A stretch of 64,000 nt of DNA from Halobacillus massiliensis (GTDB lineage Bacteria > Bacillota > Bacilli > Bacillales > Halobacillaceae), in the NCBI RefSeq assembly GCF_900166625.1, contig NZ_LT800499.1, forward strand, positions 124,001 to 188,000, given 5' to 3'. Below the pieces are notes generated by a model that worked only from the letters and a program-made list of their open reading frames with translations, searched no databases and was not told the DNA's origin. Below are positions 72-25,370 of the stretch, piece by piece; the stretch's first letter is position 1; the number at the start of each line of letters is the position of its first letter. The position numbers and the translations under genes were made by a program.

Positions 72-194
72 GGTAAACCCTCCCATATTAAAAACTAGTA
101 CCCTTCTCATACCCCAAATCAAGAGGAGGGAATCTCTTAAATCCCACACTTCATGATAAAATGGAAACAGAATGACAATACGGAGGATTACTTT

Positions 195-674: not shown

Positions 675-778
675 AGAATTGACTTTTGGTCTATTTAGCT
701 AAAGGGGTATAATTGAATATACCAATATTTGTTATAATTAAGATAGTAGCAGAATAATAAATACAGGTGTGATAAAAA

Positions 779-2701: not shown

Positions 2702-2710
2702 TTTATAATA

Positions 2711-2740
2711 AAAAAATCCATTGTTTATGGGTTTTTTATA
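2711..2740 (+). terminator. Rho-independent terminator after the DUF2075 gene
   Basis: AAAAAATCCAT and ATGGGTTTTTT form an 11-bp stem with one G-T pair around the loop TGTTT; the 3' arm doubles as the T-tract. Confidence 0.6.
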
Positions 2741-2809
2741 TTTTAACATAGTAATTTATTGTAAATAATAGTAAAATATTCTTGCGACTTACATAGGAGG
2801 TGAGAATAT

Positions 2810-3550: not shown

Positions 3551-3566
3551 TAAATATAAAAACTTT

Positions 3567-3601
3567 AAAATAAGCATATCTTTGAGATATGCTTATTTTT
3601 T
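3567..3601 (+). terminator. Terminator after the Excalibur gene
   Basis: AAAATAAGCATATC pairs with GATATGCTTATTTT around TTTGA, followed by T residues. It also lies upstream of the convergent HNH gene and may act in both directions. Confidence 0.8.
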
Positions 3602-3648
3602 GATTGTTTCTTTATTACTAAAAGATGGTTGTTCTATTAGGGGAAGCT

Positions 3649-4515: not shown

Positions 4516-4617
4516 AGGATTATACTCCCCTCGTAACAAATTTTTTTAATACTTATAACTCTATTAAACAATTCCGCTAGACTTAAACATACAAAGTAAC
4601 ATTTTTAAGAGCTAGTT

Positions 4618-4634
4618 ATGTTAATATTTAACAT
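4618..4634. promoter_or_regulatory. Inverted repeat between divergent restriction genes
   Basis: ATGTTAA-TAT-TTAACAT is a perfect 7-3-7 dyad in the 256-bp space between the HNH and McrB-like genes, followed by TATAAA. It is a candidate operator or overlapping promoter. No regulator gene is present in the island. Confidence 0.35.
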
Positions 4635-4771
4635 ATAAATTAGCAGAACTTATAAGAGGAGAGTTAACGTGGGGTGAGTCTTAACATTTTTTGTAAATCA
4701 TAAGCCTTTATAAAAACTTAAGGCTACCTATTAAGTAATAAGAGATTTAATCTTTAAGGAGAGTCTAACTT

Positions 4772-8960: not shown

Positions 8961-8975
8961 AATATCAGAATTTAA

Positions 8976-9008
8976 GAAAGGGCCTTTCCACTACGGAAGG
9001 TCCTTTAT
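8976..9008 (+). terminator. Terminator after the McrBC-like operon
   Basis: AAAGGGCCTTTCC pairs with GGAAGGTCCTTT around a short ACTAC loop, with minor mismatches. Confidence 0.7.
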
Positions 9009-9049
9009 CTCTGAGTTAGATGATTAGGGATCTTTCCGATTTATTAGAT

Positions 9050-9276
9050 TTAACTATTATCATAACTCCAATCTATATACTGCTTTGCCTTCTCAAAAAC
9101 CTCATCTCTTGTTGTGGTAATCTCAAGATCCCCTGTACCATAGTGACCCTCTAACATCACGGCTAAATCCTGGCTCTAGGTCCACTTTTTTAAGCGTTAT
9201 TTGTATTTATGAAATCCGCTACATCCTGTAAAAGCTCTCGTGGCTCTTCAGCGGTTTTTCTTCTATAATTTTTCAT
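9050..9276 (-). pseudogene. Decayed DUF5655 protein gene
   Basis: Three reading frames must be joined to recover one protein. From ATG 9276 the reverse strand gives 28 codons ending at TAA (9190-9192). A second frame reads KKVDLEPGFSRDV. A third reads EGHYGTGDLEITTTRDEVFE and ends KQYIDWSYDNS before TAA 9050. The piece PGFSRDV...HYGTGDLEI...EKAKQYI is the hallmark C-terminus of DUF5655 (predicted transport/restriction-associated) domains. At least two frameshifts and a missing middle show it is dead. DUF5655 domains often accompany restriction loci, so this is probably debris of the same island. Confidence 0.6.
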
Positions 9277-9407
9277 ATCCTAGGCAAGGAAAATAATGAC
9301 GCTGATACTATTAATATAGCAGCGGTCCTTAATCTTTTAAAAATAATTAAAATTTTATTAAATATAACGTCACCTCCCATCACCCTTCTTTCGATTATAG
9401 AAGTGAG

Positions 9408-9423
9408 GGGCATTATTATGCCC
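9408..9423. promoter_or_regulatory. Inverted repeat upstream of the replication cassette
   Basis: GGGCAT-TATT-ATGCCC, a 6-bp dyad ending 23 bases before the first start codon of the three-gene replication cassette and just before its GAGGAGAG site. It could be an operator or a leader hairpin. Confidence 0.3.
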
Positions 9424-9446
9424 AAAAATAGTAGAGGAGAGATGAC

Positions 9447-10208
9447 ATGAATTACTTAAAAGAACTAAACGCGTTTTACGATCTTATCGAATTGGATTCC
9501 TTATCCGACGCTGCGATCAGCATGTGGCATACGCTCATGCTGATCAATAACAAACGGGGCTGGGAGAAGGAGTTTACGGTCCCTGCCTCAGCGATACTGA
9601 CAAAATCAGGACTGACGGAGTCTTCCTTTAAACGAGCCAGAAAGGAATTAAAAGAAAAGGGCTATATCAAACACCGCTCCGCCGGACGCAATAAAGCTCC
9701 TTTCTACCAAATGATCTCCCGAGTCAAAACCTACCAGGGTGAAGATCTTCAAAATGCCACGACAAACCTCCAGGCAGCCCCATCTGCGAACACCCACGTG
9801 ACCCCTCATGCGAACCACCCGACGGCCCCCGACACGGTCTCTTTATTTAAAAGAAAAGAAGCAAATGAAAATGAAAAAGTAGTATGCAGCGTGCCTGATT
9901 CCTGCCATGCCTTTTATGAACAGAATATCGGCATGCTGAGCCCGTTTATTGCGGAGCGGATCACGGTGTGGATCGAGGAAATGGGCGAAGAGCTTGTGAG
10001 TGAGTCGATGCGAATTGCAGTGGCTCAGGAGAAACGGCAGTTTCAGTATTGTGAAGGTGTCTTAAATCGCTGGCAGTCGCTGAAGGTTAAGACGCTTGAT
10101 GATGTGCGGCGGGAAGAGAGGCAGTACCGCAAGGCTTCCACTTCTAAAGCAAACTCAGCGGATACAGCTTCCATTTTTGATGAACTTAGAAAGGCGGTGC
10201 AAGCATGA
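9447..10208 (+). CDS. DnaD-like phage replication initiation protein
   Basis: A 253-residue protein of phage replication modules. Residues 15-85 form a winged-helix domain (ILTKSGLTESSFKRARKELK is the recognition region), followed by an unstructured Ala/Pro/Thr linker. Residues about 148-222 match the DnaD/DnaB_2 C-terminal domain (FYEQNIGMLSPFIAERITVW, then FQYCEGVLNRW), which remodels DNA and recruits the helicase loader. It follows GAGGAGAG, and its TGA overlaps the next ATG (ATGA), so the three genes form one operon. No integrase or structural phage genes are nearby. Confidence 0.8.
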   Translation: MNYLKELNAFYDLIELDSLSDAAISMWHTLMLINNKRGWEKEFTVPASAILTKSGLTESSFKRARKELKEKGYIKHRSAGRNKAPFYQMISRVKTYQGEDLQNATTNLQAAPSANTHVTPHANHPTAPDTVSLFKRKEANENEKVVCSVPDSCHAFYEQNIGMLSPFIAERITVWIEEMGEELVSESMRIAVAQEKRQFQYCEGVLNRWQSLKVKTLDDVRREERQYRKASTSKANSADTASIFDELRKAVQA

Positions 10209-10531
10209 CGTATGAAGAAGCGGTTGATGTATTGGAAGCGATGAGTCATTTGTATCCTGGCAGGTTTGAGGTCACGAAGCGCCGGGCCGAGATTTTCATT
10301 CCTCAACTGGAGAAGATGGTTTATGAGGGTGTGCTCGCAAAGCTGACGGATTATGCGCTCGATAATCCTTTTCCTCCAACGCTTTCTGACATTGCGGTCT
10401 ATCCTCCAAAGGAAAATGAGTATTTAGCGAGGATGAAGCAGTGGGAGGAAGAGGCGGCAAAGGTGCCGCAGGAGACGAAGGCTCTTTTTCAAAAAAAGTT
10501 CGATGAGCTCGTAAGGAGGCTTTCTCAATGA
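10205..10531 (+). CDS. G39P-like replicative helicase loader/inhibitor
   Basis: A 108-residue protein resembling the N-terminal domain of SPP1 gp39: MTYEEAVDVLEAMSHLYPGR at the start, then VYEGVLAKLTDYALDNPFPP. In SPP1, gp39 binds and holds the DnaB-type helicase (gp40) until it is delivered to the origin-bound initiator. The position between a DnaD-like initiator and a DnaB-like helicase, with ATGA overlaps on both sides, fits exactly. The C-terminus is charged and probably disordered. Confidence 0.8.
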   Translation: MTYEEAVDVLEAMSHLYPGRFEVTKRRAEIFIPQLEKMVYEGVLAKLTDYALDNPFPPTLSDIAVYPPKENEYLARMKQWEEEAAKVPQETKALFQKKFDELVRRLSQ

Positions 10532-11832
10532 TTCACAATCAGGAAGCAGAACAGGCGGTGCTTGGCACGATTTTACTGGAGGGGGAGGTGATGAAGGATG
10601 TGACGCTCTCTCCCGAGCATTTTTACATACCGAATCATCAAATGATCTACGTGGCGATGCAAAGCATTTACAAGCGGCAGGAGCCGATCAATCTTGTGAC
10701 CGTGACGACGGAGCTGAAGGAGAAGATTAACGTTGTGGGAGGCGTCAGCTACTTAAGCCAGCTCGTTGAGTCAATTCCAACCGTTGTGACTCTTAAACCT
10801 CACCAGCGCCTCGTCTATGATGCGTTTCGCAATCGCAAAACGAGAGAAGTGGCGGTTGACTACGTCAATAACCCGAGTGGGGTAGCTCTTGAAGATTTAA
10901 TGATCAAGCTGGAGGAGTACCGCGAACTTGGGGTATCAAAGAAAAATCCTTCGACGTATGAAGCGTTAATGGAAATTGCACGTGAGATCGCGCACCCTCC
11001 AGAAGGGAATATGACCGGCTTCTCTACAGGCTATCACGACCTCGATCAAATGACAGGCGGCACCCAGAGAGGCGACTTAATCGTACTTGCCGCTCGGCCG
11101 TCGATGGGGAAAACGGCATTTGCCTTAAATATTGCCGCCAATCATTGCAAAGCAGGAAACAGTGTTCATCTTTTCAGCCTGGAAATGGGAATGAAATCAC
11201 TTTTGCAGCGTCTCATTTCTTCAGAAGGCAAGATTAACGCGCAGAAGTGGCGGACTATGACCTTTTCGGAGAGAGATTACACCCGCACGATGGACGTGAT
11301 TGGCGGCATGGCGCAGTGGCCGATCCATGTACATGAAAGCGAGCGGACGGTGAGTGATATTAGAGCCGTCGTCAGAGATACAGTAAAGAATGAGGAGAGC
11401 GACAGCCGGCCACTGATCATCATTGATTACCTGCAGCTTATGTCAGCGACTGGCAGAGCGGAGAACCGCAATATTGAAGTCGGCATGATTACGAGAGACC
11501 TAAAAATGTTGGCCCGTGAGCTGAATGTCCCTATCATGGTCTTGTCCCAGCTGTCCCGGGCGGTCGAGCAGCGTAAGGACAAGCGGCCTGTACTTTCCGA
11601 TTTAAGAGAATCCGGCAATATCGAACAGGATGCCGACGTTATCGCCTTTTTGCACAGAGATGATTATTACAACTGGGATTCTGATGCAGGCGGCGAGGTC
11701 GAGCTGCTGTTAAGCAAGCAGCGGAATGGTCCGATTGGGACTGTTAGGCTGGAGTTTATGAAGGAGTATGGACGGTTTGAGGGAGTGGTTAGTCATCGCA
11801 AATCCTCTCCTGGCATTCTTTCTTTAGGTTAG
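10528..11832 (+). CDS. DnaB-like replicative helicase (phage type)
   Basis: A 434-residue hexameric DNA helicase. The N-terminal DnaB domain begins NQEAEQAVLGTILLEG; the RecA-like motor has Walker A ARPSMGKTAF (about 189-198), Walker B IIIDYLQLM (about 297-305), then LARELNVPIMVLSQLSR and a DLRESGNIEQDADV motif containing the arginine finger region. It is slightly shorter than the chromosomal Bacillus DnaC helicase (about 454), and the G39P-like loader just upstream argues for a phage or plasmid origin. The reading frame is intact and the codon use resembles the chromosome more than the AT-rich defence island. Confidence 0.9.
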   Translation: MIHNQEAEQAVLGTILLEGEVMKDVTLSPEHFYIPNHQMIYVAMQSIYKRQEPINLVTVTTELKEKINVVGGVSYLSQLVESIPTVVTLKPHQRLVYDAFRNRKTREVAVDYVNNPSGVALEDLMIKLEEYRELGVSKKNPSTYEALMEIAREIAHPPEGNMTGFSTGYHDLDQMTGGTQRGDLIVLAARPSMGKTAFALNIAANHCKAGNSVHLFSLEMGMKSLLQRLISSEGKINAQKWRTMTFSERDYTRTMDVIGGMAQWPIHVHESERTVSDIRAVVRDTVKNEESDSRPLIIIDYLQLMSATGRAENRNIEVGMITRDLKMLARELNVPIMVLSQLSRAVEQRKDKRPVLSDLRESGNIEQDADVIAFLHRDDYYNWDSDAGGEVELLLSKQRNGPIGTVRLEFMKEYGRFEGVVSHRKSSPGILSLG

Positions 11833-12176
11833 GAAATCCTTCTTTCTCCCCGAGGCTGTTTACGGTAAATTCTTCTGGATCGACACTGGCAGAAAGTCAG
11901 ATTCGCCATTTACTAGTCCCCCGGATCATCAAACCACTAATAGGCCCCCTGTAACCCGTTTGAATATTATAGTTGTTATGCAAAATTAAATTACATCCAC
12001 TTAATAGTATGATGGATGCACTTTTTAAATTTTCCACCTTTTAGAAAACGATGTATGTTAAATTCTATTGTATATGATCGCTGGTCTTATAGCTTACATA
12101 TATTAGGGTGAAAACAATCATCTCGGAAAGCTATATTGCTAAGGTCCTACTTAAAAGGTTTACAAGGAGGAATTTG
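11833..12176. other. Intergenic region with weak terminator
   Basis: No gene is seen. CATCCA (11994-11999) and TGGATG (12013-12018) form a stem followed by CACTTTTT, a plausible weak terminator for the replication operon. A CATATATTA box lies near 12098 but lacks the matching AC element, so it is not claimed as a sigma-K promoter. Confidence 0.4.
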
Positions 12177-12896
12177 ATGAAAAGAATACTTTTAATAGCT
12201 TTTACCTTAACATTAGCTATCCTACTGCCACAATCTGTTTTGGCCAATGAATTATTACCTAATGAGCATGAGAATCCAAAATTCAAGGAGAATCCTAAAG
12301 GTGTAGAGGTCAACAAAGCCGCTGACCACACATTTACTACGCCATCTAACACTGATGGGATGGTTACCCCTTTTATGGATGAATGTGTATGTTCAGGAGG
12401 CAGTTATAGTGATCCAGTAGACCTAGATCCTAATAAATTGAATGTAGAAGGGATCCCGCTTGAGTATTCAATAGCTGATGGGGAGTTAGTCATATTAGAA
12501 AGAGGGGAGTACCATTATTACGTTCAAAGTGCTGAACAAGGTTACTTTAATTATGTAACAGGAAATATAGCTAAAACTGTAGCCAATGGCTATGGTACTT
12601 TCGTTTTAAGTAAGGGAATCAATAAAACTCCATATATTAATAAGATTTTTAACACAACAAGTAAAGAAACACTTCACAATTATGGTGGTTATGCTAAAAC
12701 AGCTTCAAGTGCAATGATTCAGTATAAAACTCCCTTATGGGGAAGAATAGCCTCAGCTCCCGTGCCTGGTGTTGGTTCTAAAGAAGTCATCGTTTATATT
12801 AGTAAAACGGGAAATGATTACACATGGAATAACCGTGCTAGGTTTGTTGTAAATAGTGATAACTCTATTACTACATCAACATGGTACGTTGATTAA
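12177..12896 (+). CDS. Secreted protein of unknown function
   Basis: 239 residues with a Sec signal peptide (MKRILLIAFTLTLAILLP, cleavage likely after VLA near residue 24). The mature part is Asn/Gly/Thr-rich, with a CVCSGG motif and a C-terminal region predicted to be mostly beta (KEVIVYISKTGNDYTWNNRA). No known domain is recognised. The start is set by AAGGAGG 7 bases before ATG 12177; an upstream in-frame ATG at 12108 would bury the signal peptide. A small two-helix membrane protein follows after 41 bases and is probably co-transcribed. Confidence 0.75.
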   Translation: MKRILLIAFTLTLAILLPQSVLANELLPNEHENPKFKENPKGVEVNKAADHTFTTPSNTDGMVTPFMDECVCSGGSYSDPVDLDPNKLNVEGIPLEYSIADGELVILERGEYHYYVQSAEQGYFNYVTGNIAKTVANGYGTFVLSKGINKTPYINKIFNTTSKETLHNYGGYAKTASSAMIQYKTPLWGRIASAPVPGVGSKEVIVYISKTGNDYTWNNRARFVVNSDNSITTSTWYVD

Positions 12897-12937
12897 ATCA
12901 TTAAAGTTGGGTTACTCTGTTAAATGGAGGAATAGGG

Positions 12938-13120
12938 ATGATTAACAAACCGTCGGATATACTATTTGTTTTTCTTGTTATTATCGTTTATTACATAATT
13001 AAAAATGCTTTGGACAAAAATCGAAAGGATAGAAAAATACTAACGCTTAAGGATGTTGGCCAATCATTGATTGTTACTCTTATCATTAGCGTTGTCTTTC
13101 TATTTATTAATATTTTTTAA
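12938..13120 (+). CDS. Small membrane protein, two TM segments
   Basis: 60 residues with a GGAGG site 9 bases upstream of the ATG. Two hydrophobic stretches (about 8-23 and 43-60) are separated by a Lys/Arg/Asp-rich loop (DKNRKDRK). Function unknown. The position directly behind the secreted protein and before a shared terminator suggests a two-gene unit, perhaps export or immunity related (inference). Confidence 0.6.
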   Translation: MINKPSDILFVFLVIIVYYIIKNALDKNRKDRKILTLKDVGQSLIVTLIISVVFLFINIF

Positions 13121-14475: not shown

Positions 14476-14533
14476 TTGCAAAACGACACCAATGTCGTTA
14501 TAATAAAACTAACAAAAAGACATTCGTGTCGTT
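14476..14533 (+). promoter_or_regulatory. Promoter and twin TetR operators of the MFS-tetR operon
   Basis: TTGCAA (14476-14481) and TATAAT (14499-14504) are separated by 17 bases. An 18-base dyad, AACGACA-CCAA-TGTCGTT (14482-14499), fills that spacer. A second copy, AAAGACA-TTCG-TGTCGTT (14516-14533), has its centre 34 bp downstream. Binding at the first would block RNA polymerase. The operon encodes a TetR-family protein, so autorepression is the natural reading. Confidence 0.8.
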
Positions 14534-14552
14534 TTAAAGAGAGGGCCAGCAT

Positions 14553-15815
14553 ATGAAGCGTTTATTAAGTAACAAAGGGTACCTGACGTTAATGTCCGCG
14601 CAGGCGATTTCAAGCATCGGCGACTGGCTGAGTATTGTGGCCATTATTACGCTTGTCGGCTTAAAGTGGGAGGCGTCACCGTTTGAAGTATCGTTCGTCT
14701 TTCTCTGCCTGGCGGTGCCTATGGCATTGTTTGGTCCTGTGGCCGGTATGGTCGCTGACCGTTTCAGCCGTAAAGCGCTGATGATCATTTCTGATGTTGT
14801 CCGGGCGGCTTTAATTCTCGTGCTGACAATCGCTTCTTCGCTTTGGATGGTGTATGCGACCCTGCTGACGATCGGTATTTTTTCTGCGGTGTTCATTCCG
14901 GCGAAAAACGGGAAGCTGAAGGAGATTGTGCCACAGGAGGATATGAAAGGGGCAATGTCGATCACCTCGATGATCGATTCCTCTACAAAAATTCTCGGGC
15001 CGCTCATCAGTGGACTGCTTGTAACGATGGTGGGTGCCCAGCAGGTATTCATCATCGACTCAGCAACATTTCTCATATCCGCAGTGATTCTGCTGTTTAT
15101 TCCGAATGCTATCTCCTTGGAATCTGAAGAAAGTGATGAGGGAGAGGGCTCATTTAAAAAGGAATTTGTGCTCGGGCTTTCTTTCCTGAAATCGAGCCGC
15201 TTCCTAATGACGGGCTTACTTCTCATGGGGCTCAGTCTTTTAATTCTCCAGTCCGCGGACTCGCAGCTGATCGTGCTGCTGCGTGAGCTGACAAATGCCT
15301 CGCCTGATTTGTTCGGTTATCTCGTTACAGGTTCTGGGATCGGCATGTTTTTAGCCGGGTTTCTTTTGGCGAAAAAGACGGACTATGTGCCATACCTGCT
15401 CATGCTGTTTGGCGTCTTTGGCATCGGGGCGAGCTTTGGTGTTATGGGGCTGCTGACACATTACGATCTCGGCTATTCGAGTCTATGGGCGCCGGGGCTT
15501 GGGTTTACTGCCGGTTTTTCAGCCAGTTTGATTCTCGTTCCGTTTCAGGCGACGGTTCAGGTGACCACACCTGTACATATGACAGGCCGGGTATTTGGAG
15601 TGATTAACAGCGTTCTGACGAGTGCTACGATTATCGGGCCGCTGCTTGGCGGATGGCTCGCTACAGTGATCGGTGTCATTCCTACCTTTACGATTACCGC
15701 TGGACTGCTTGTGCTTGTGGCCCTGATCGGCCGCTTAGCGAGACGAAAAGTAGAAGGAGGGGAAGCGCATGGCGCCAAGGGTAAGCGAGGAACACCTGAA
15801 GCAAAGACGAGCTGA
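14553..15815 (+). CDS. MFS efflux transporter
   Basis: 420 residues, about 12 membrane segments, of the MFS_3 / multidrug-macrolide efflux type (Mef/EntS-like). The first cytoplasmic loop has the MFS motif GMVADRFSRKALMI. It starts MKRLLSNKGYLTLMSAQAIS after an AGAGGG site. The hydrophilic C-terminus overlaps the start of the tetR gene by 47 bases in another frame, so pump and repressor are translationally linked. The inducing compound is unknown; export of a toxic amphiphile is the usual role. Confidence 0.88.
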   Translation: MKRLLSNKGYLTLMSAQAISSIGDWLSIVAIITLVGLKWEASPFEVSFVFLCLAVPMALFGPVAGMVADRFSRKALMIISDVVRAALILVLTIASSLWMVYATLLTIGIFSAVFIPAKNGKLKEIVPQEDMKGAMSITSMIDSSTKILGPLISGLLVTMVGAQQVFIIDSATFLISAVILLFIPNAISLESEESDEGEGSFKKEFVLGLSFLKSSRFLMTGLLLMGLSLLILQSADSQLIVLLRELTNASPDLFGYLVTGSGIGMFLAGFLLAKKTDYVPYLLMLFGVFGIGASFGVMGLLTHYDLGYSSLWAPGLGFTAGFSASLILVPFQATVQVTTPVHMTGRVFGVINSVLTSATIIGPLLGGWLATVIGVIPTFTITAGLLVLVALIGRLARRKVEGGEAHGAKGKRGTPEAKTS

Positions 15816-16383
15816 CATTATGGAAGCTGCGGTTCAAGTGTTTATACAACATGGCTATGAACATACGACGATGAAACATGTGATGGAGGCGGCAGGCGTG
15901 AGCCGAGGCGGTCTCTATCAGTACTTTTCCAATAAAGAGGATTTGTTTGAAGCGCTGCTTGAGGAGGATCTTACCGGGGAAGCGGGTGCCGCTCAGCGGC
16001 CTTTAGAGGAAGTGGATTCATACTGGAAATTGTTGATTCAGCTCATGTTTGGAGAAGATGGCCAGCCGGATAACAGAATGGATCCGCTGGCACCGTGTAA
16101 GCTGGAATTTTTCATTACCGGACGCCGGGATGAGCGCCGCAGGGCTTATGCAGAAAAGCGGTATCGCCTGGCGCTAAGCGTCTATATAGAAGTTCTAAAA
16201 GCCGGACAGAGATCCGGGGAATTCAGTGATCGTCATGACCCTGAGCTGATCGCCCGCTCCATCATCAGCTTCACGGATGGTCTTGGCCTCGATCACGCGA
16301 TATTGCCGGAAGAGACGGTCAAGCTGAAGGAACAGTCGGTTTTGTTTGTGGAATATTTGAAATTGGCGTTGTCCTCCTCTTAA
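15769..16383 (+). CDS. TetR-family repressor of the adjacent pump
   Basis: 204 residues. The N-terminal HTH domain is clear: RRADIMEAAVQVFIQHGYEH, then MKHVMEAAGVSRGGLYQYFS with the typical GLYxYF recognition helix, about residues 14-60. The C-terminal ligand/dimer domain is divergent. The start ATG follows GAAGGAGGGG inside the end of the pump gene. The twin dyads upstream of the operon are its probable operators. A terminator overlaps the stop codon. Confidence 0.92.
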   Translation: MAPRVSEEHLKQRRADIMEAAVQVFIQHGYEHTTMKHVMEAAGVSRGGLYQYFSNKEDLFEALLEEDLTGEAGAAQRPLEEVDSYWKLLIQLMFGEDGQPDNRMDPLAPCKLEFFITGRRDERRRAYAEKRYRLALSVYIEVLKAGQRSGEFSDRHDPELIARSIISFTDGLGLDHAILPEETVKLKEQSVLFVEYLKLALSSS

Positions 16384-17300: not shown

Positions 17301-17328
17301 ACGAATGAAGAAGCTTTTTCATACTATA
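17301..17328 (+). promoter_or_regulatory. Sigma-K-type promoter of propeller gene 1
   Basis: AC (17301-17302), 17 bases, then CATACTATA (17320-17328), an exact match to the sigma-K consensus AC-N16/17-CATANNNTA. AGGAGG follows closely, so the leader would be short. Confidence 0.7.
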
Positions 17329-17351
17329 AAAGGATAGGAGGTGAAAGTAAG

Positions 17352-18395
17352 ATGAAACATCATCACAACTACGATCGAGAGCATTCGTGCGGCTGCAATC
17401 ACTGCAGAAAACACAGGGGTATCCCTGTATGCCGGGAACTGGCTTATGTGACGAACACTGGGACGGAAGACTTGCCGGGAAATACAGTGACCGTTATCGA
17501 TACAAAAACAGATCAATTGATCGATACAATTACAGTAGGGAATAACCCTATAGGAATTGAAATCACTCCAAATGGCCGGAAAGTGTACGTGGCTAATCAG
17601 TTGGACGGCACTGTGTCTGTCATTGATACCGTAAACCATATAGTTATTGATACTATCCCATTAGGAAATAATCCAGTTTCAATGAGAATTACTCCTGATG
17701 GTACGAGAGCCTATGTGACGCTTTCTGGTTCAAATACGGTAGCTGTTATTGATACAGAAACCAATACGGTTACGGATGCTATTCCTGTAGGAAGAGGGCC
17801 TTTAGGACAAGCGATAGGCAATACCCCTTTTGGCACGAGGGATTATGTGGGGAATTTTGAAGATGATACCGTTTCGGTTATTAATGCCAACCCTGACTCG
17901 CCGGCTTATAATACCGTTATTTTTACCATTGCAGTAGGAGATGGACCTTTGAAAGCAGATATGACGCCTGACGGTACGACCGTTTATGTATTGAATTACA
18001 ATGGCAACAGTGTGTCAGCGATTGATACAGGAACCAACGCCGTAACATCCATACCGGTAGGAATTAGACCTATCGGTGTTGGCATCGGAAATACGCCTTT
18101 TGGGATGCGAGCCTATATTACGCACGAGACTTCACAGGACATTTACGTCATAGACGCTGATCCAACGTCTCCCTCTTTTAATTCAGTCGTCGATATCATT
18201 AAGAATGTAGGCAGCGAGCCTAGTGATGTCGACTTTACAGCTGACGGCCTGAAAGCCTATGTTCCAGATTACATGGGGAACAACGTGACGGTCATTGACA
18301 CATCGACAAATAAGGTGATTCGTAAGATCAAAGCAGGTGCCTATCCTAATATCATTACGATTGGGAGAGTGTGCGGCTTCCCACATCATTGCTAA
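17352..18395 (+). CDS. YVTN beta-propeller protein 1, Cys/His-tipped, probable spore-surface protein
   Basis: 347 residues with no signal peptide. The N-terminus is His/Cys-rich (CGCNHCRKH, then IPVCRELAYVTN), the body is about seven YVTN/YncE-type blades of roughly 42 residues (VSVIDT..N.V..TI.VG..P), and the C-terminus ends IGRVCGFPHHC. A long central blade carries GNTPFGTRDYVGNFEDDTVS. YVTN propellers are scaffolds or binding proteins. The ATG at 17352 follows AGGAGGTGA; the frame upstream has no signal. The sigma-K-type promoter implies late mother-cell expression, hence a coat or outer spore-layer role (inference). The terminal cysteines could form disulfides or bind metal. Confidence 0.82.
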   Translation: MKHHHNYDREHSCGCNHCRKHRGIPVCRELAYVTNTGTEDLPGNTVTVIDTKTDQLIDTITVGNNPIGIEITPNGRKVYVANQLDGTVSVIDTVNHIVIDTIPLGNNPVSMRITPDGTRAYVTLSGSNTVAVIDTETNTVTDAIPVGRGPLGQAIGNTPFGTRDYVGNFEDDTVSVINANPDSPAYNTVIFTIAVGDGPLKADMTPDGTTVYVLNYNGNSVSAIDTGTNAVTSIPVGIRPIGVGIGNTPFGMRAYITHETSQDIYVIDADPTSPSFNSVVDIIKNVGSEPSDVDFTADGLKAYVPDYMGNNVTVIDTSTNKVIRKIKAGAYPNIITIGRVCGFPHHC

Positions 18396-18403
18396 GTGTA
18401 GTC

Positions 18404-18443
18404 AGCTCCAGTTATCACAAAATGATGACGGGGGCTTTTTTTA
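18404..18443 (+). terminator. Terminator after propeller gene 1
   Basis: AGCTCCAGTTATCA pairs imperfectly with TGATGACGGGGGCT, followed by seven Ts. Confidence 0.75.
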
Positions 18444-18499
18444 TAGTAAAAAGGTTAAAACCAGCGTCCAACTTCCTCAATTCCTCTGCATTTGTCTAA

Positions 18500-18527
18500 A
18501 CCAGGTAGACTTCCTTTTCATAGACTA
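18500..18527 (+). promoter_or_regulatory. Sigma-K-type promoter of propeller gene 2
   Basis: AC (18500-18501), 17 bases, CATAGACTA (18519-18527). Same spacing as in the other three copies. Confidence 0.75.
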
Positions 18528-18560
18528 TAAGATAGACGAATGATAGGGGGTGAAAGAGAA

Positions 18561-19610
18561 ATGAGAATTGATCATAACAATGATCGGAAGCCTTCTTGCA
18601 GCTGTAATTACTGCAGAAAACACCGTCCAATCCCTGTGTGCCGGGAGCTCGCTTATATTACGAACACAGGTACGCAATCCTCGCCGGGAAATACAGTAAC
18701 CGTCATTGATACAGAAACAGACCAGGTGATCGATACGATTACGGTAGGAACTTTACCATTAGGCATCGGAATCACGCCAAATGGCCGGAGAGTGTATGTG
18801 GCCAATCAACTAGACCGCACCGTCTCTGTGATTAATACAGCAGAAAATGTAGTGATTAATACCATTCCCTTAGACAATTATCCGATTTCCTTAGTAATTA
18901 CGCCTGATGGCACGAGAGCGTATGTAACGCTTTCCAATGGGGAGGATACGGTGGCGGTTATTGATATAGAAACCAACACGGTTACAGAGACCATTCCTGT
19001 AGGAAGAGTGCCTTTAGGACAAGCGATAGGCAATACCCCTTTTGGTACAAGAGATTATGTAGCAAACTTTGAAGATGATACGGTTTCTGTTATTAACGTC
19101 AATCCTGACTCGCCGCCTTATAATACCGTTATTTTTACGATTCCAGTAGAAGACGGGCCGGAGGATGTAGTGATGACACCTGACGGGACGACCGTTTATG
19201 TTACGAATTACAATGCTAACAGTGTGTCTGCGATTGATACGGGAACCAATGCAGTGACAACCATACCGGTAGGCATCGGCCCTGTCGGCGCTGGTATCGG
19301 GAATACGCCTTTTGGGGTGAGAGCCTATATTACACACGAGACTTCACAGGACATTTACATCATAGACGCTGACCCGACTTCACCAGCCTTTAATACTGTC
19401 GTAGATATTATTAAAAAGGATGTAACAGGCCAGCCGAGTGATGCCGCTTTTACAGCGGACGGCTTAAAAGCCTATGTACCGACTTACAACGGAAACACCG
19501 TGCTGGTCATCGACACATCGAAGGATGAAGTGATCCGTACGATTAAAGCAGGTGATTTTCCTAATATTATTACGATTGGGAGAGTGTGCGGCTTCCCGCA
19601 TCACTGTTAA
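18561..19610 (+). CDS. YVTN beta-propeller protein 2
   Basis: 349 residues, close paralogue of gene 1 along its whole length. The N-terminus MRIDHNNDRKPSCSCNYCRK keeps the CxCxxC pattern, IPVCRELAYITN follows, and the C-terminus is again IGRVCGFPHHC. The blades show the NTVTVIDTETDQ pattern. The ATG at 18561 follows GGGGGTGA; an in-frame ATG at 18540 precedes that site and is not preferred. The terminator behind this copy has lost its 3' arm, so transcription may continue into gene 3. No membrane segment is present. Confidence 0.82.
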   Translation: MRIDHNNDRKPSCSCNYCRKHRPIPVCRELAYITNTGTQSSPGNTVTVIDTETDQVIDTITVGTLPLGIGITPNGRRVYVANQLDRTVSVINTAENVVINTIPLDNYPISLVITPDGTRAYVTLSNGEDTVAVIDIETNTVTETIPVGRVPLGQAIGNTPFGTRDYVANFEDDTVSVINVNPDSPPYNTVIFTIPVEDGPEDVVMTPDGTTVYVTNYNANSVSAIDTGTNAVTTIPVGIGPVGAGIGNTPFGVRAYITHETSQDIYIIDADPTSPAFNTVVDIIKKDVTGQPSDAAFTADGLKAYVPTYNGNTVLVIDTSKDEVIRTIKAGDFPNIITIGRVCGFPHHC

Positions 19611-19692
19611 TCGCAGGCCGAACTCCGGTTATTAAAATAGTAAAAAGTTAAGAGCAGCGTCCAACTTCTTTATTTCCTCTGCAAGTGTCTAA

Positions 19693-19720
19693 ACCAGGTA
19701 GACCTCCTTTTCATAGACTA
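19693..19720 (+). promoter_or_regulatory. Sigma-K-type promoter of propeller gene 3
   Basis: AC (19693-19694), 17 bases, CATAGACTA (19712-19720). The surrounding about 100 bp is nearly the same as upstream of gene 2. Confidence 0.75.
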
Positions 19721-19752
19721 TAAGATCGACAAATGCTAGGAGGTGAATAGAG

Positions 19753-20799
19753 ATGAGAAATCATGATAACCACGCTCAAGAGCCTTCGTGCAGCTGCCAT
19801 CATTGTCGTAAACACACACGTATTCCTGTATGCCGTGAGCTCGCTTATGTGACCAATTCGGGGAGTGAAAGTTCTCCTGGGAATACCGTGTCTGTCATTG
19901 ATACAGAAACAGACCGGGTGATTGATACAATTAAGGTAGGATCCCGCCCGACGGGAGTGGCGATTACGCCAAATGGCCGCAGAGTGTATGTTGTCAATCG
20001 CTTCGATAACAATGTCTCCGTCATTAATACAGCATCAGGCAAAGTGATTGATACAGTAGCTGTTGGGCTGGGTCCTTCAGCGGTTGTGATTACTCCTGAC
20101 GGAACGAGAGCCTACGTGACGAATACGAGGGAGAATACGGTCTCGGTGATTGATGTTCCTAGTAATATCGTTACAGATACCATTCCTGTAGGAAACAATC
20201 CGCTGGGAGAAGCGGTTGGCAATACGCCGTTTGGTACGAGAGATTATGTAGCAAACCTGAATGACGATACCGTTTCCGTCATTAATGCCAACCCTGACTC
20301 GCCAGCTTATAATACCGTCATTTTTACTGTTCCTGTAGGGGATGGTCCCGTCGATGTGGCGATGACGCCTGACGGTACTACCGTGTATGTGACGAATGAA
20401 AATGCCAACAGCGTATCTGCGATTGATACTGGGACAAATGCGGTCGTAACCATTCCAGTAGGAACCACACCTAGCGGAATTGGCATCGGCCATACACCTT
20501 TTGGGGTGAGAGCGTATGTTACGAATGAGAACTCCGATGACATTTACATCATCGATGCAGACCCGACTTCACCAGCCTTTAATACTGTCGTTGATGTAAT
20601 CACTAAGAATGTCGGAGACTCGCCAAGTGACGCAGCTTTTACCGCTGACGGCCTGAAAGCCTATGTGCCGAATAATCTGGATAACACCGTATCGGTCATC
20701 GATACATCGACAAATGAAGTAATCACCACGATTAAGGTCGGTGTGTATCCAAATATTATTGTGATAGGAAGAGTGTGCAGTGTCCCTCCTCACTGTTAA
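19753..20799 (+). CDS. YVTN beta-propeller protein 3
   Basis: 348 residues, full-length paralogue. N-terminus with CSCHHCRKH and IPVCRELAYVTN; C-terminus IGRVCSVPPHC, where one His of the usual HHC is replaced by Pro. Blades are regular and intact. It follows AGGAGGTGA by 6 bases. Compared with copies 1 and 2, the middle blades have drifted most (DNNVSVINTASGKVIDTVAV). No signal peptide. Expression is predicted from its own sigma-K-type promoter and possibly by read-through from gene 2. Confidence 0.82.
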   Translation: MRNHDNHAQEPSCSCHHCRKHTRIPVCRELAYVTNSGSESSPGNTVSVIDTETDRVIDTIKVGSRPTGVAITPNGRRVYVVNRFDNNVSVINTASGKVIDTVAVGLGPSAVVITPDGTRAYVTNTRENTVSVIDVPSNIVTDTIPVGNNPLGEAVGNTPFGTRDYVANLNDDTVSVINANPDSPAYNTVIFTVPVGDGPVDVAMTPDGTTVYVTNENANSVSAIDTGTNAVVTIPVGTTPSGIGIGHTPFGVRAYVTNENSDDIYIIDADPTSPAFNTVVDVITKNVGDSPSDAAFTADGLKAYVPNNLDNTVSVIDTSTNEVITTIKVGVYPNIIVIGRVCSVPPHC

Positions 20800-20810
20800 G
20801 CCTTCGGTGG

Positions 20811-20848
20811 AACTCCGGTTGTCCTCAAACGATGACGGGAGCTTTTTT
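20811..20848 (+). terminator. Terminator after propeller gene 3
   Basis: AACTCCGGTTGTC pairs with GATGACGGGAGCTT around CTCAAAC, followed by a T run; homologous to the one after gene 1. Confidence 0.75.
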
Positions 20849-20867
20849 ACAGTCTTCATGAGTCTAT

Positions 20868-20895
20868 ACCGGTTCGGTCTCTTTTTCATAGACTA
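20868..20895 (+). promoter_or_regulatory. Sigma-K-type promoter of propeller gene 4
   Basis: AC (20868-20869), 17 bases, CATAGACTA (20887-20895). The spacer sequence differs from copies 2 and 3 while the boxes and spacing are kept, which suggests selection. Confidence 0.75.
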
Positions 20896-20927
20896 TGAGG
20901 GAGATGAATAGTAGGAGGTGAATAGAG

Positions 20928-21983
20928 ATGAGAATTCATCATAACGATGAACACGAAAATGCATGTGAAAAACAATGCCAGAACGAATGCCATACACACC
21001 GGCGTATTCCTGTATGCCGGGAGCTGGCTTATGTGACCAACTCGGGGAGTGATGATGCTCCTGGGCATACCGTGTCTGTCATCGATACAAAAACAGATCG
21101 AGTAATAGATACCATTAGAGTAGGGGCAGGGCCGCTTGGTGTGGCGATTACACCAAATGGAAGAAGAGTCTATGTAACGAATACGGAGGAGGGAACGGTC
21201 TCTGTTATTGATACTGCCGCCGGAATGGTGATCGATACGATCCCTGTAGGAAATGCTCCCATTTATGCAGCGGTGACCCCGGATGGTACAAGAGTTTATG
21301 TGACAAACTATACGGATGGTACGGCTTCCGTGATTGATACCGAAACCAACACGGTCACGAATACCATTTCAGTTGGAAACACACCTTTAGGACAAGCGAT
21401 AGGCAATACCCCATTTGGCACGAGAAATTATGTAGCAAACCTGCAGGAAAATACGGTTACGGTGATTGACGCCAACCCTGACTCGCCCGCCTACAATACC
21501 ATTATCCTCACCATTTCAGTAGGCACTGGGCCGGTGGAGTTAGTGATGACCCCGGACGGTACCACGGTTTATGTGACGAATGTAAATGATAATACCGTGT
21601 CTGCAATTGATACCGGAACCAACTCAGTGACGACGATCCCGGTAGGTGTTAGTCCTTCCGGCGCTGGAGTGGGCAATACCCCATTTGGAGTTCGGGCTTA
21701 TATTACCAATGAAGGTTCTGATGAAATTTACGTCATAGACGCTGATCCCACGTCACCCGATTTTAATACTGTCGTTGATGTAATCGCAAAAAACGTAGGA
21801 GATTCGCCGAGTGATGTGGCTTTTACCGCTGACGGGCTCAAAGCCTATGTTCCGAATAACCTGGATAACACGGAGTCTGTCATTGATACATCGACGAATA
21901 AGGTGATCAGCACGATCAAAGTTGGTGTGTTTCCCAATTTAATAGCGATCGGGAGAGTGTGCGGTTTCACTCATCACTGTTAG
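20928..21983 (+). CDS. YVTN beta-propeller protein 4
   Basis: 351 residues, the most divergent paralogue. Its N-terminus has a different cysteine layout (CEKQCQNECHTHRR) but then returns to IPVCRELAYVTN; the C-terminus is IGRVCGFTHHC. Seven blades are intact, with the conserved GNTPFGTRNYVANLQENTVT in the middle. AGGAGGTGA precedes the ATG. A strong terminator ends the array and separates it from the convergent glycan operon. Confidence 0.82.
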   Translation: MRIHHNDEHENACEKQCQNECHTHRRIPVCRELAYVTNSGSDDAPGHTVSVIDTKTDRVIDTIRVGAGPLGVAITPNGRRVYVTNTEEGTVSVIDTAAGMVIDTIPVGNAPIYAAVTPDGTRVYVTNYTDGTASVIDTETNTVTNTISVGNTPLGQAIGNTPFGTRNYVANLQENTVTVIDANPDSPAYNTIILTISVGTGPVELVMTPDGTTVYVTNVNDNTVSAIDTGTNSVTTIPVGVSPSGAGVGNTPFGVRAYITNEGSDEIYVIDADPTSPDFNTVVDVIAKNVGDSPSDVAFTADGLKAYVPNNLDNTESVIDTSTNKVISTIKVGVFPNLIAIGRVCGFTHHC

Positions 21984-22070: not shown

Positions 22071-22928
22071 TCAGTCTTTTTTAAAATAATGGGGATACAG
22101 GCTTTGATGTGACTCCACCCATTGCTTCATCTCAACTATCATTTGTTCATAGCCTGGAACCTCAAAGGAAAAGTCCTTACGCTGGTTGATCAATGTTTTA
22201 TCGATTTGGACGCTATTGCAAGGCGTAATTTCCACAGTGCTGTCTTTAAACGTTTTGTTGAAGAGGTGAAGCAGGTCATATTTGCTGATGCTATCATTAT
22301 TTACGAGGTGATAAAGGCCTGTCAGGTTTTCTTCGGCTGCTTTTTCGATCGCTTTTGCCAGTGTTAATGTCGTCACACCGGTCCATATGGCACCGGTGTA
22401 ACCGCGGATCGGTCCGGTTTGTTTCATAAACCAGTTGAATAAACCAATGCCGTTACTGCTTGGATCGGGTCCGATGATCGAATTTCTAAAGGTTAAGTGG
22501 CGGGGATGCTGAATTTCTCCAAGCGCCTTCGTTCGATCATAAAAAGTTTCCCCGTCAGGAAAGCTTTTCTCTCCGTAAGGTGCTGATTTTCCCGAGAAGA
22601 CGCAGTCTGTACTCATATGGATCAGCTTCGTTTCGGAGTTTTCCAAAAGGTCTACGAGCATGTGGGGAAGGTAGCTGTTTACATAGACCGCACGGGCCCG
22701 ATCCTGATCACAGGCTTCGTTTAAAACGCCGACCGCGTTAATAATGACATCATAGTCATTTTGTAAGAGTGCTTCCAGCAGCGGCTGATCCATCACGTCA
22801 CCAATAATATTCTCTCCATAAGGCAAAGGTAGGCGGGAAAAGGTTGTGACATCATGCCCTTTATTCAGTAAGTACAATGAAATCGTGTGACCGGCCATGC
22901 CGGAAGCGCCAAGCACTAAAAATCTCAC
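22071..22928 (-). CDS. RmlD-like NAD(P)-dependent sugar reductase
   Basis: 285 residues, extended SDR of the RmlD substrate-binding type (dTDP-4-dehydrorhamnose reductase and CapF-like reductases). GASGMAG binds the dinucleotide (about residues 7-13); MSTDCVFSGK and YDRTKALGE supply the Ser/Thr and Tyr-xxx-Lys catalytic set. The preferred GTG start at 22928 shares GTGA with the stop of the upstream dehydratase gene and has AAAGGG 8 bases before it. With a CapE-like enzyme upstream, it probably reduces the 4-keto-6-deoxy-HexNAc intermediate. It lacks the cupin domain of full CapF. Confidence 0.82.
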   Translation of the reverse strand: MRFLVLGASGMAGHTISLYLLNKGHDVTTFSRLPLPYGENIIGDVMDQPLLEALLQNDYDVIINAVGVLNEACDQDRARAVYVNSYLPHMLVDLLENSETKLIHMSTDCVFSGKSAPYGEKSFPDGETFYDRTKALGEIQHPRHLTFRNSIIGPDPSSNGIGLFNWFMKQTGPIRGYTGAIWTGVTTLTLAKAIEKAAEENLTGLYHLVNNDSISKYDLLHLFNKTFKDSTVEITPCNSVQIDKTLINQRKDFSFEVPGYEQMIVEMKQWVESHQSLYPHYFKKD

Positions 22929-23953
22929 GTTCCTCGCCCTTTCCACTTGCGCAATTCTTCCTGAATATACGGAAGCTCCAGCAATTTTTCTTTAATTTCT
23001 TTTACGGAAAGAATTTGAGTGTTATTGGAATTGTATTCATTCGTTAACGTAATTTTCGGTGAGCCTTCCTCCAGGTATTTTCCGTAATTCAAATCACGGT
23101 TGTCGGCAGGTACTCGAAAGAAATTCCCTAAGTCAATGGCTTTGGCTGCTTCTTCTTTCGTCAGCAGCACCTCGAAAATTTTTTCCCCGTGGCGTGATCC
23201 GATAACTTCAATTTTGTTATCCGCATGAAATAGTTCTTTAACGGCCTGCGCTAAGTCTCCGATATATGAAGCGGGCGATTTCTGTACCATAATATCGCCG
23301 TTTTCCGCATGTTCGAAAGCGTACAGGACGAGATCGACCGCATCTTCAAGACTCATTAAGAAGCGTGTCATCTTAGGATCTGTAATGGTCAATGGTTTAC
23401 CCGCTTTGATTTGCTCAATGAACAGGGGAATGACAGAGCCGCGGGAGGCCATCACATTTCCGTAACGGGTGCCGCAGATTAATGTCCGTTCCGGTGAGGA
23501 AAATCTCGCCTTGGCGATGAACGTTTTTTCCATTAAGGCTTTGGAGATGCCCATAGCGTTGATCGGGTATGCGGCTTTATCGGTGGAAAGGCAGATGATT
23601 TTCTTAACACCTGCATTCATCGCTGCACTTAATACATTATCGGTGCCGAGCACATTGGTCCTGACCGCTTCAATCGGGAAAAATTCGCAAGAGGGAACCT
23701 GCTTCAGGGCGGCCGCATGAAAAATATAATCGACTCCATGCATCGCATTGTTTAAGCTGTCGATGTTTCGGACATCGCCGATAAAGAACTTAATTTTGTC
23801 ATTCTGATAGAGCATGCGCATATCATTTTGTTTCTTCTCATCTCTGGAAAAAATTCTAATTTCTTTTATATCGGTATTCAAAAATCGTTTGCAGACCATA
23901 TTTCCAAAAGAACCCGTTCCCCCTGTAATGAGGATGGTTTTATCTTTAAACAT
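22925..23953 (-). CDS. CapE/PseB-like UDP-GlcNAc 4,6-dehydratase (epimerising)
   Basis: 342 residues, SDR of the polysaccharide-biosynthesis (CapD/CapE) family. GGTGSFGN (about 11-18) is the NAD(P) loop; STDKAAYPINAMGISK (about 123-138) is the CapE/WbjB-type catalytic segment in which Met replaces the usual Tyr. It makes 4-keto-6-deoxy UDP-HexNAc, the first step to FucNAc-, QuiNAc- or pneumosamine-type sugars. Second gene of a three-gene operon (27 bases after the glycosyltransferase) and overlapping the reductase by 4 bases. The operon's sigma-K-type promoter suggests use on the spore surface. Confidence 0.88.
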   Translation of the reverse strand: MFKDKTILITGGTGSFGNMVCKRFLNTDIKEIRIFSRDEKKQNDMRMLYQNDKIKFFIGDVRNIDSLNNAMHGVDYIFHAAALKQVPSCEFFPIEAVRTNVLGTDNVLSAAMNAGVKKIICLSTDKAAYPINAMGISKALMEKTFIAKARFSSPERTLICGTRYGNVMASRGSVIPLFIEQIKAGKPLTITDPKMTRFLMSLEDAVDLVLYAFEHAENGDIMVQKSPASYIGDLAQAVKELFHADNKIEVIGSRHGEKIFEVLLTKEEAAKAIDLGNFFRVPADNRDLNYGKYLEEGSPKITLTNEYNSNNTQILSVKEIKEKLLELPYIQEELRKWKGRGT

Positions 23954-23980: not shown

Positions 23981-24574
23981 TCACAATCCCCTTAGCCGTA
24001 AATTGCTTTCTGAATTAAAACGGGGATAATTGTACCAGTAGGCAAATATGTTCGTATATTTGCACTTGGGTTTTTTATCTACTAATGCTCTATTAAAAAA
24101 GTAGTCTCCGTTTCTCACACCCAGGGGAAATCTAGCATCTCCTATAAAGCTTCTTCTTATAATTTTAAAAGCTCCCGGGGAAGTGTATCCATCTGTTTCC
24201 TTCTTTAGAAGCTGCCTCCCGGTTTTATCAATCATATTATAATAATAGATATCATAATCTCCATTGACCTGCGCCAATACCTCTCGAATTTCCGGCAGAT
24301 ACTTGTCATCACTATCAATGATCGCAATGTAATCTCCGGAAGCTTCCTCAATACAGCGATTGTAGGAGTAACTGGCACCCATATTTTTTTCATTGGTTAG
24401 TACCTTTAACTGAGGGCACGTTTTTTTGTATTCCTCTAGTATCTCTAACGTACAATCGGTAGACTTATCGTCACATATAATAATTTCAAAAGCATAATCT
24501 TTAGGAATGCTGTCTAACATCGTTTGAATCCACTCTGCACTGTTAAAAGCAGGACTTAAAAAACTTATTTTCAA
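23981..24574 (-). CDS. Family 2 glycosyltransferase (short)
   Basis: 197 residues with a GT-A fold: LSPAFNSAEW, then FEIIICDDKSTDCT, NMGASYSYNRCIEEASGDY and the DxD-type metal site IDSDD. It covers the nucleotide-sugar-binding half and a short acceptor half, so it is at the small end for the family but not obviously truncated. The start is TTG 24574, 8 bases after AGGAGTGA; the in-frame GTG at 24586 lies inside that Shine-Dalgarno. First gene of the operon and directly behind a sigma-K-type promoter. Confidence 0.85.
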   Translation of the reverse strand: MKISFLSPAFNSAEWIQTMLDSIPKDYAFEIIICDDKSTDCTLEILEEYKKTCPQLKVLTNEKNMGASYSYNRCIEEASGDYIAIIDSDDKYLPEIREVLAQVNGDYDIYYYNMIDKTGRQLLKKETDGYTSPGAFKIIRRSFIGDARFPLGVRNGDYFFNRALVDKKPKCKYTNIFAYWYNYPRFNSESNLRLRGL

Positions 24575-24625: not shown

Positions 24626-24653
24626 TAATATATGTCGTCTTTTCTTATAACGT
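24626..24653 (-). promoter_or_regulatory. Sigma-K-type promoter of the glycan operon
   Basis: On the minus strand AC (24653-24652), 17 bases, then CATATATTA (24634-24626). This matches the consensus found before all four propeller genes, on the opposite strand and with unrelated spacer sequence. Confidence 0.7.
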
Positions 24654-24824: not shown

Positions 24825-25370
24825 TTGAAGAATGTGGCAAACGTAAACTGGCATGAAGATTTTATCATTCATCTGGTGAAGGTTATTCGCCCGAAGGTCT
24901 ATGTGGAACTGGGCATCCAGCGCTGTCTTCTGTTTAACCGGGTCATTGATCACGCAGAGAAACTTATAGGAGTGGACATCGACAAAATGGCCGGCAGCTA
25001 TATGAGTGAATCTCCAAAGGCTCAATTTTTTCACGGACCGACAACGGAGTTCGCGAAAAAGCTGGAAGCTGATCCACTGGAGATTGATCTGCTTTTCATC
25101 GATGCGGATCATTCAAAAGAGGCGGTACTCGAGGATTTTAAAAATTATTTCCCGTTCGTTGCCCCGCACGGCTTAATCTTATTGCACGATGGGCATCCGG
25201 GATCTTCCAGGATGATGGATCCGTTGTATTGCGGAACAGCCTACCAGGCGATTGAAGAATTATCCAAACAAACCGATGCTTATGAAATGATGACCATTCC
25301 CGTAAGTCCGGGATTAACGCTGTGCCGAAAGCGTAAAGAACAATTATCGTGGCATGAAAAAAAGGAATAG
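24825..25370 (+). CDS. Class I SAM-dependent methyltransferase
   Basis: 181 residues resembling CmcI/Methyltransf_24 O-methyltransferases. VYVELGIQRC is motif I, GVDIDKMAG holds the acidic residue for SAM ribose, LLFIDADHSKEAVLEDF is motif IV, and LILLHDGHPG follows. Starts at TTG 24825 (AGAGG 9 bases upstream); a GTG 9 bases further is an alternative. It is divergent from the glycan operon and could methylate its sugar product, but no sigma-K-type boxes were found before it. Confidence 0.8.
   Translation: MKNVANVNWHEDFIIHLVKVIRPKVYVELGIQRCLLFNRVIDHAEKLIGVDIDKMAGSYMSESPKAQFFHGPTTEFAKKLEADPLEIDLLFIDADHSKEAVLEDFKNYFPFVAPHGLILLHDGHPGSSRMMDPLYCGTAYQAIEELSKQTDAYEMMTIPVSPGLTLCRKRKEQLSWHEKKE

Follow-up and report, generated by a model that had tools for sequence, protein, structure and literature searches.

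A tandem array of four YVTN beta-propeller genes behind sigma-K-type promoters in Halobacillus massiliensis, encoding candidate spore-surface proteins

The propeller array and its promoters

The DNA analysed here is a stretch of 64,000 nucleotides (nt) from Halobacillus massiliensis (contig NZ_LT800499.1, positions 124,001 to 188,000 of the forward strand), referred to below as the window and numbered from its first letter. Between positions 17,301 and 21,983 it carries four genes for YVTN beta-propeller proteins in tandem. Each is preceded by a sigma-K-type promoter and, between the promoter motif and the start codon, by a ribosome-binding site. The following features were located (aa, amino acids; z, stability relative to shuffled sequences):

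17301..17328 (+), sigma-K-type promoter of copy 1, AC-N17-CATACTATA, ending 23 nt 5' of the start codon
17352..18395 (+), propeller copy 1, 347 aa, with cysteines at residues 13, 15, 18, 27, 341 and 347
18396..18450 (+), hairpin and U-run after copy 1, likely terminator (-17 kcal/mol, z -3.92)
18500..18527 (+), sigma-K-type promoter of copy 2, AC-N17-CATANNNTA, ending 33 nt 5' of the start codon
18561..19610 (+), propeller copy 2, 349 aa, used for the structure model
19693..19720 (+), sigma-K-type promoter of copy 3, AC-N17-CATANNNTA, ending 32 nt 5' of the start codon
19753..20799 (+), propeller copy 3, 348 aa
20797..20851 (+), hairpin and U-run after copy 3, possible terminator (-14.9 kcal/mol, z -1.29; 18 of 200 shuffles as stable)
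20868..20895 (+), sigma-K-type promoter of copy 4, AC-N17-CATANNNTA, ending 32 nt 5' of the start codon
20928..21983 (+), propeller copy 4, 351 aa
21984..22038 (+), hairpin and U-run 3' of copy 4, likely terminating the array (-20.7 kcal/mol, z -4.45)

Identity to copy 2 is 78% for copy 1, 73% for copy 3 and 68% for copy 4. Pairwise ratios of nonsynonymous to synonymous substitution (dN/dS) among the copies range from 0.15 to 0.20, so all four look maintained by selection. Nothing notable in the way of a terminator-like hairpin was found 3' of copy 2 (z -0.35). From the pattern of hairpins and U-runs, copy 1 at least looks like a separate transcription unit.

A first-pass annotation of these letters had described four full-length paralogues in a row, each behind AC-N17-CATANNNTA, at 17301, 18500, 19693 and 20868. 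The open reading frames (ORFs) are indeed intact at 347–351 aa, and all four motif positions are exact. The identical spacing claimed for them holds nearly for copies 2 to 4, with 32–33 nt between motif and start codon; in copy 1 the distance is smaller by about 10 nt (23 nt). Conservation of the boxes in a diverged spacer, as also described there, is seen in the invariant positions across the four promoters, which make up 8/8 within the boxes and 5/20 elsewhere (Fisher p = 4e-4); a TTTT ahead of CATA is kept in all four as well. The promoters are not independent of each other, since the upstream DNA of copies 2 and 3 is near-identical. In the whole window AC-N17-CATANNNTA was found seven times compared with 1.27 expected, and none of 100 shuffles gave seven matches. 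Three of the matches lie outside the array, at 24626–24653 on the reverse strand before a glycosyltransferase gene, at 48007 and at 50971, the motif at 48007 belonging to an internal start within a cation-efflux-like ORF.

Probable late mother-cell control of the array

A sigK gene is present in the genome (357.6 bits, above the cut-off of 298.65). Occurrence of the motif was rejected as evidence by itself: genome-wide, 108 sites were counted against 154 for the reversed control, which is no enrichment and makes the motif informative by position only. Its position relative to start codons and its presence in independent lineages were used instead. For the positional test, 98 distinct sites, from 100 of the 108, were examined for a Shine-Dalgarno sequence plus start codon 20–52 nt downstream, opening an ORF of at least 50 aa. 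Such a start was found at 20 of the 98 sites, against about 2.7 expected because 2.8% of window positions qualify.

The 20 positioned sites comprise those of the four array propellers, that of the adjacent glycosyltransferase and 15 others, among which Pfam names the sporulation proteins CotD (PF11122), SpoVIF (PF14069) and GerPA/PF (PF10676), with 32–35 nt from motif to start codon. In Bacillus subtilis, spoVIF, cotD and gerP are sigma-K targets. Outside the 20–52 nt range, the motif was found 56 nt before a 74-aa LuxR-type helix-turn-helix protein resembling GerE, and 70 nt before an Hsp20 protein. Several of the remaining positioned sites precede, as judged by eye, transport or metabolic proteins; together with the internal start at 48007 this indicates that part of the 20 arose by chance. 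Late mother-cell control of the array is well supported by these data, given the presence of sigK, the same motif before spoVIF, cotD and gerP, and the -10 box before propellers of other lineages (see below).

Because sigma-E and sigma-K share the CATA -10 element, earlier transcription of the array by sigma-E, or by both mother-cell sigma factors, has to be weighed; it would leave the place of the proteins unchanged and appears unlikely. The B. subtilis consensus sequences, as stated in PMC3416734, are KCACM / GCATANNNTA for sigma-K and TYATATTT / KCATANANTN for sigma-E. By this standard the -10 boxes of copies 2–4 fit sigma-E at 7/7 and sigma-K at 6/7 positions, a result in favour of sigma-E, and that of copy 1 fits both at 6/7; AC is moreover missing from six of the 15 propeller genes with a -10 box that are described below. 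Against sigma-E, the best -35 fit of the array promoters to TYATATTT is 3–4/8, which equals the background (mean 3.7), and AC is kept in 4/4 array promoters despite much spacer divergence. The wider sigma-K -35 element is matched merely at 2–3/5 positions of KCACM in the array, compared with 5/5 before cotD and the gerE-like gene; spoVIF reaches 4/5, and gerP and the glycosyltransferase 3/5 each. Resting on the short AC box, sigma-K is likely favoured over sigma-E at the array. Of the sigma-K-type promoters proposed in the first-pass annotation, the late mother-cell type is thus upheld by sigK and by the spoVIF, cotD and gerP sites, and the choice of sigma-K over sigma-E is likely rather than proven.

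Protein family and predicted structure

Every array protein contains the TIGR02276 YVTN repeat in six stretches, scoring 173.5–224.5 bits against a cut-off of 27.85. All four also pass the Pfam gathering scores of Lactonase (PF10282) and YNCE (PF21783), and many of the structural matches of copy 2 are 6-phosphogluconolactonases and nitrous-oxide reductases. The proteins might on these grounds be lactonase- or YncE-like enzymes from the mother cell, spore-associated or cytosolic, with no structural part to play. This is improbable: the 6-phosphogluconolactonase equivalog NF008258 scores 31.4 for copy 3 and 32.9 for copy 4, where 370 is required, and gives no listed match for copies 1 and 2, whereas the YVTN repeat model is far over its cut-off in all four. 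A tandem array of four copies, and the YVTN heads on collagen stalks described below, better fit a structural or binding role, below which the generic enzyme is ranked.

Neither a Collagen (Pfam) nor an NTTRR-F1 domain was found in the four proteins. Judged by hydropathy rather than by a dedicated signal-peptide program, they have no signal peptide, the top 15-residue hydrophobic stretch within residues 1–45 having a mean of just 0.26–0.29; the first-pass annotation had likewise described propellers without signal peptides. Such absence is expected for proteins of the mother-cell cytoplasm that are laid on the forespore.

Copy 2, modelled by AlphaFold2 on an alignment of the four window proteins, is predicted to be a beta-propeller, with a predicted local distance difference test (pLDDT) of 89.2 and a predicted TM-score (pTM) of 0.86; for residues 1–20 the pLDDT is below 50. 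The top match in the PDB is 1L0Q, both by sequence (259.1 bits) and by structure (Foldseek and VIA-align, Z 44.6, root mean square deviation 2.2 over 300 residues, 39% identity).

Two cysteines, C27 and C343, are invariant in nine aligned sequences (the array four, L007, L008–L010 and L120), and both were also seen by eye in L121 and L133. C27 immediately precedes the first strand (C-x-x-LAYVTN), while C343 immediately follows the last (IxIGxxC). With the first strand of the copy 2 model at residues 26–35 and the last at 334–344, the pair is located where the ring should close, and a C27–C343 disulfide may latch it.

The N-terminal parts differ, being a short Cys/His-rich tail in the array and a domain some 70 residues long in L008–L010 and L120. 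A domain of this length, often with a CxC start, was found fused ahead of YVTN propellers in L008–L010, L121, L133 and L002. Its membership of the CotY/CotZ family was considered on account of the CxC start, but no match near a cut-off was obtained in Pfam (L121, L008, L120) or NCBIfam (L128, L121), and the domain is left unassigned. In our reading, the domain of the L008-type relatives looks LSm-like.

Propellers in other genomes

Relatives of the array propellers were gathered by protein similarity and the motif was not used. Array-like proteins were found in none of ten congeners and in one of 50 further relatives (both at E 1e-30). Across the order, 396 other genomes yielded four matches (E 1e-40), of which G073 is a close one (549 bits). 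Within the class, a broader profile matched three of 397 other genomes (E 1e-50), including L123, an anchored and different propeller, and L122, where the match lies in a short frame only. One other genus gave matches in 6/18 genomes (E 1e-30), four of them above 450 bits. A related-locus search of genome contigs confirmed no relative among 36 pattern stretches for copy 2 and 34 for the four-copy alignment. Array-type propellers are accessory and patchy in distribution.

The promoter test set consisted of 17 propeller genes whose start could be identified (the array four, L007 and 12 more), and the control set of 132 other ORFs of at least 150 aa from the window and 16 fetched loci. CATANNNTA ending 20–52 nt before the start was found for 15/17 propeller genes and 7/132 control ORFs. 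The 15 boxed genes include kin, four (L128–L131) coming from one genus and four being the array itself. Of the seven boxed control ORFs, six lie on pBM600, a plasmid of Priestia megaterium, and one is the window's glycosyltransferase, which means that the control set may include spore genes of its own. Left out of the 17 were L138:14506 (boxed), the pBM600 gene RS26610, L123 and L122 (start not identified). The box of RS26610 ends 56 nt before the start, and adding it together with L138:14506 and L123 gives 16/20. L123, which has a hydrophobic N-terminal anchor, shows no box near its start and so serves as a contrast.

The full AC-N17 motif precedes nine of the 15 boxed propeller genes, namely the array four and five of one other genus (L128–L132), L132 being a differently built propeller of the same genus as L128–L131. 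The scan of homologous loci that the first-pass annotation had put forward as a check thus supports the -10 box widely (15/17) and AC-N17 more narrowly (9/15). A chance motif duplicated along with a gene whose products serve vegetative cells is very improbable: the near-identical upstream DNA of copies 2 and 3 and the genome-wide count at control level would suit it, but the boxes are kept where the spacer diverged, most propeller genes found without the motif carry the -10 box, a fifth motif precedes the adjacent sugar operon, the array proteins lack a signal peptide, and the only propeller found with a hydrophobic N-terminal anchor (L123) has no box near its start.

Association with spore-surface genes

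Three other YVTN genes of the same genome, two of them apparently duplicates, combine an NTTRR-F1 domain, collagen-like repeats and YVTN repeats. In L138:5582 and L140:8782, NF033675 scored 177 and 175.7 bits and PF01391 Collagen was confirmed in both. An NTTRR-F1 domain with collagen is the layout of BclA-kind exosporium filament proteins. GCATAAAATA ends 38, 38 and 27 nt before the starts of the three stalk-propeller genes, and AC at N16/17 before it was absent where tested. Locus L138 (G000:C2:2850000-2869999) holds a duplicated NTTRR-F1/collagen block of genes at 5582–7135, 9523–10623, 12008–13108 and 14506–16059, in which two YVTN-headed copies flank two sisters with another head, the same front part and the same GCATAAAATA promoter. 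The head of the 366-aa sister protein gave no Pfam domain at E 0.01.

Three CotZ-family genes are present in the genome; in the sole one inspected upstream, a CATANNNTA box lies 43 nt from the start codon. A gene for an 81-aa His/Lys-rich protein without Pfam match (L091; L139:2902–3147) is oriented divergently from a CotZ-family gene and has the motif 30 nt upstream of its start codon. Elsewhere (L026, motif at G000:C2:582789-582816) the motif stands 26 nt before the start of a 111-aa protein with a Gly/Phe/Tyr-rich tail, a candidate coat protein, whose LSm-like part is weak (12.2 bits, under the cut-off).

A sugar operon converges on the array from the opposite strand, its genes overlapping or sitting 27 nt apart:

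22071..22946 (-), RmlD-like sugar-nucleotide reductase, PF04321 73.3 bits, sharing 47% identity with an SDR protein of pBM600
22925..23953 (-), FnlA-like UDP-GlcNAc 4,6-dehydratase/5-epimerase, PF02719 351 bits, 43% identical to a pBM600 protein
23981..24574 (-), family 2 glycosyltransferase, PF00535, TTG start at 24574 preceded by a ribosome-binding site
24626..24653 (-), sigma-K-type promoter of the sugar operon, AC-N17-CATATATTA, ending 51 nt before TTG 24574

For the glycosyltransferase, the ORF list gives a GTG start at 24586 instead of TTG 24574. The FnlA-like protein reaches 535.7 bits with the FnlA model TIGR04130, under the cut-off of 730. The glycosyltransferase and RmlD-like genes had no match in 10/10 congeners (E 1e-30; the FnlA-like gene was not searched). 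Since the operon has a motif of its own and these two genes, like the propellers, are unmatched in congeners, array and operon look like one accessory block, possibly co-regulated. A Methyltransf_24 gene (window 24825–25370) lies divergent from the glycosyltransferase and may serve the function of the operon; by eye, no CATANNNTA box was seen upstream of it.

Among 497 Priestia plasmid records, 40 have a propeller match. Plasmid pBM600 (strain QM B1551) carries two YVTN genes alongside CotX-type, C1q-type, glycosyltransferase and wecB/FnlA-like/RmlD-like genes, and a BclA_C-like gene whose 37.5 bits narrowly miss the cut-off of 38. According to PMC4674009, loss of pBM600 is common to strains without an exosporium; the words 'propeller', 'YVTN' and 'lactonase' have 0 occurrences in the main text of that paper.

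Fusions of YVTN repeats to collagen stalks in this genome, the sugar operon with a like promoter and the exosporium plasmid pBM600 all support a spore-surface location of the array propellers. These observations speak for the placing of the propellers on the spore surface in the first-pass annotation, whose terms 'abundant' and 'building block' stay inference.

Proposed role of the array

Taken as a whole, the array probably encodes spore-surface propellers made by the mother cell late in sporulation under sigma-K. In this scheme, mother-cell sigma-K would transcribe the four propeller genes from one promoter each, while a fifth promoter of the same type would drive the convergent operon, whose products would make and transfer a modified amino sugar. 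The propellers would be made in the mother-cell cytoplasm and deposited on the forespore surface, each with a short, disordered tail rich in Cys and His in front of its YVTN propeller. After lysis of the mother cell, the C27–C343 disulfide could form and latch the ring. Through the tail and terminal cysteines, the proteins could be cross-linked or attached to Cys-rich layers of the CotZ/CotY type. The products of the sugar operon may glycosylate the propellers.

Several results weigh against this proposal, besides the absence of genome-wide enrichment of the motif, the better -10 fit of copies 2–4 to sigma-E and the poor KCACM fit given above. The -10 box at 20–52 nt is missing in L002 and in the pBM600 gene L124:42955 (2/17), and AC at N16/17 in L007, L133, L121, L113, L114 and L120 (6/15). 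No coat or exosporium domain was found in the four array proteins in the Pfam and NCBIfam tables. The stalk propellers are merely 37% identical to copy 2, and of those scored, L138:5582 has seven YVTN stretches and L140:8782 only four. L002, L132, the propellers on collagen stalks and the two of pBM600 lack the Cys pair. In PMC4674009 the whole of pBM600 was studied and not its propellers, and its authors allow for an additional requirement for pBM500. The likelihoods expressed for the proposed role and for its alternatives overlap, sigma-E transcription and an enzymatic function both being compatible with a spore location.

A wider idea, tentative and distinctly more doubtful than the role proposed for the array, is that YVTN propellers form a general, exchangeable spore-surface module of the Bacilli. 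They would occur as free Cys-latched rings in a lattice resembling an archaeal S-layer and as heads on BclA-like collagen filaments, and would be swapped between species along with sugar-pathway genes, giving lineage-specific surfaces. The free rings would assemble by varied N-terminal parts, the Cys/His tail or, in relatives, the small LSm-like domain.

Spore surfaces are viewed as composed of CotX/CotZ-type coat proteins and BclA-type filaments. In the open-licence literature, searched by title and abstract start, no published account of YVTN propellers as bacterial spore-surface proteins was found. If the proposed role is true, propellers add a structural class to spore surfaces and offer a stable display scaffold, and the Priestia plasmid genes annotated 'lactonase' and 'YncE family' gain a reading. 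A vague annotation is turned into a directly testable prediction.

Other features of the window

The region 153–11832 of the window contains an rlmH-like gene (153–674) and genes for a Schlafen-type helicase, an HNH nuclease, an MrcB_N/AAA protein and a DUF2357/PD-(D/E)XK protein, the last followed by DnaB_2 and DnaB helicase genes. It is likely a defence or mobile region, in which the MrcB_N/AAA and DUF2357/PD-(D/E)XK pair possibly represents McrBC-type restriction.

Comparison with known systems

The late mother-cell genes spoVIF, cotD and gerP are preceded by AC-N17-CATANNNTA as the array genes are, although the proteins they encode are unrelated to propellers. The archaeal surface-layer protein 1L0Q has the same YVTN repeat and fold as the array proteins. 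According to its entry title it combines a tandem YVTN propeller with PKD domains, whereas the array proteins are bacterial and no PKD domain was seen in them; unlike 1L0Q, the array has sporulation-type promoters, a Cys-rich tail and no signal peptide. The export signal of a classical exported S-layer protein is absent from the array proteins by hydropathy.

The BclA-type nap proteins resemble the stalk propellers of this genome, which carry a C-terminal YVTN head, an NTTRR-F1 domain, a collagen stalk and a mother-cell-type -10 box. The array proteins differ from BclA-type proteins in having neither the collagen stalk nor NTTRR-F1, and their head is a propeller. On pBM600 the propellers are single, lack the Cys pair and in one case adjoin an IS256 transposase, whereas the array consists of four tandem copies; the YVTN genes of that plasmid are found together with coat and sugar genes.

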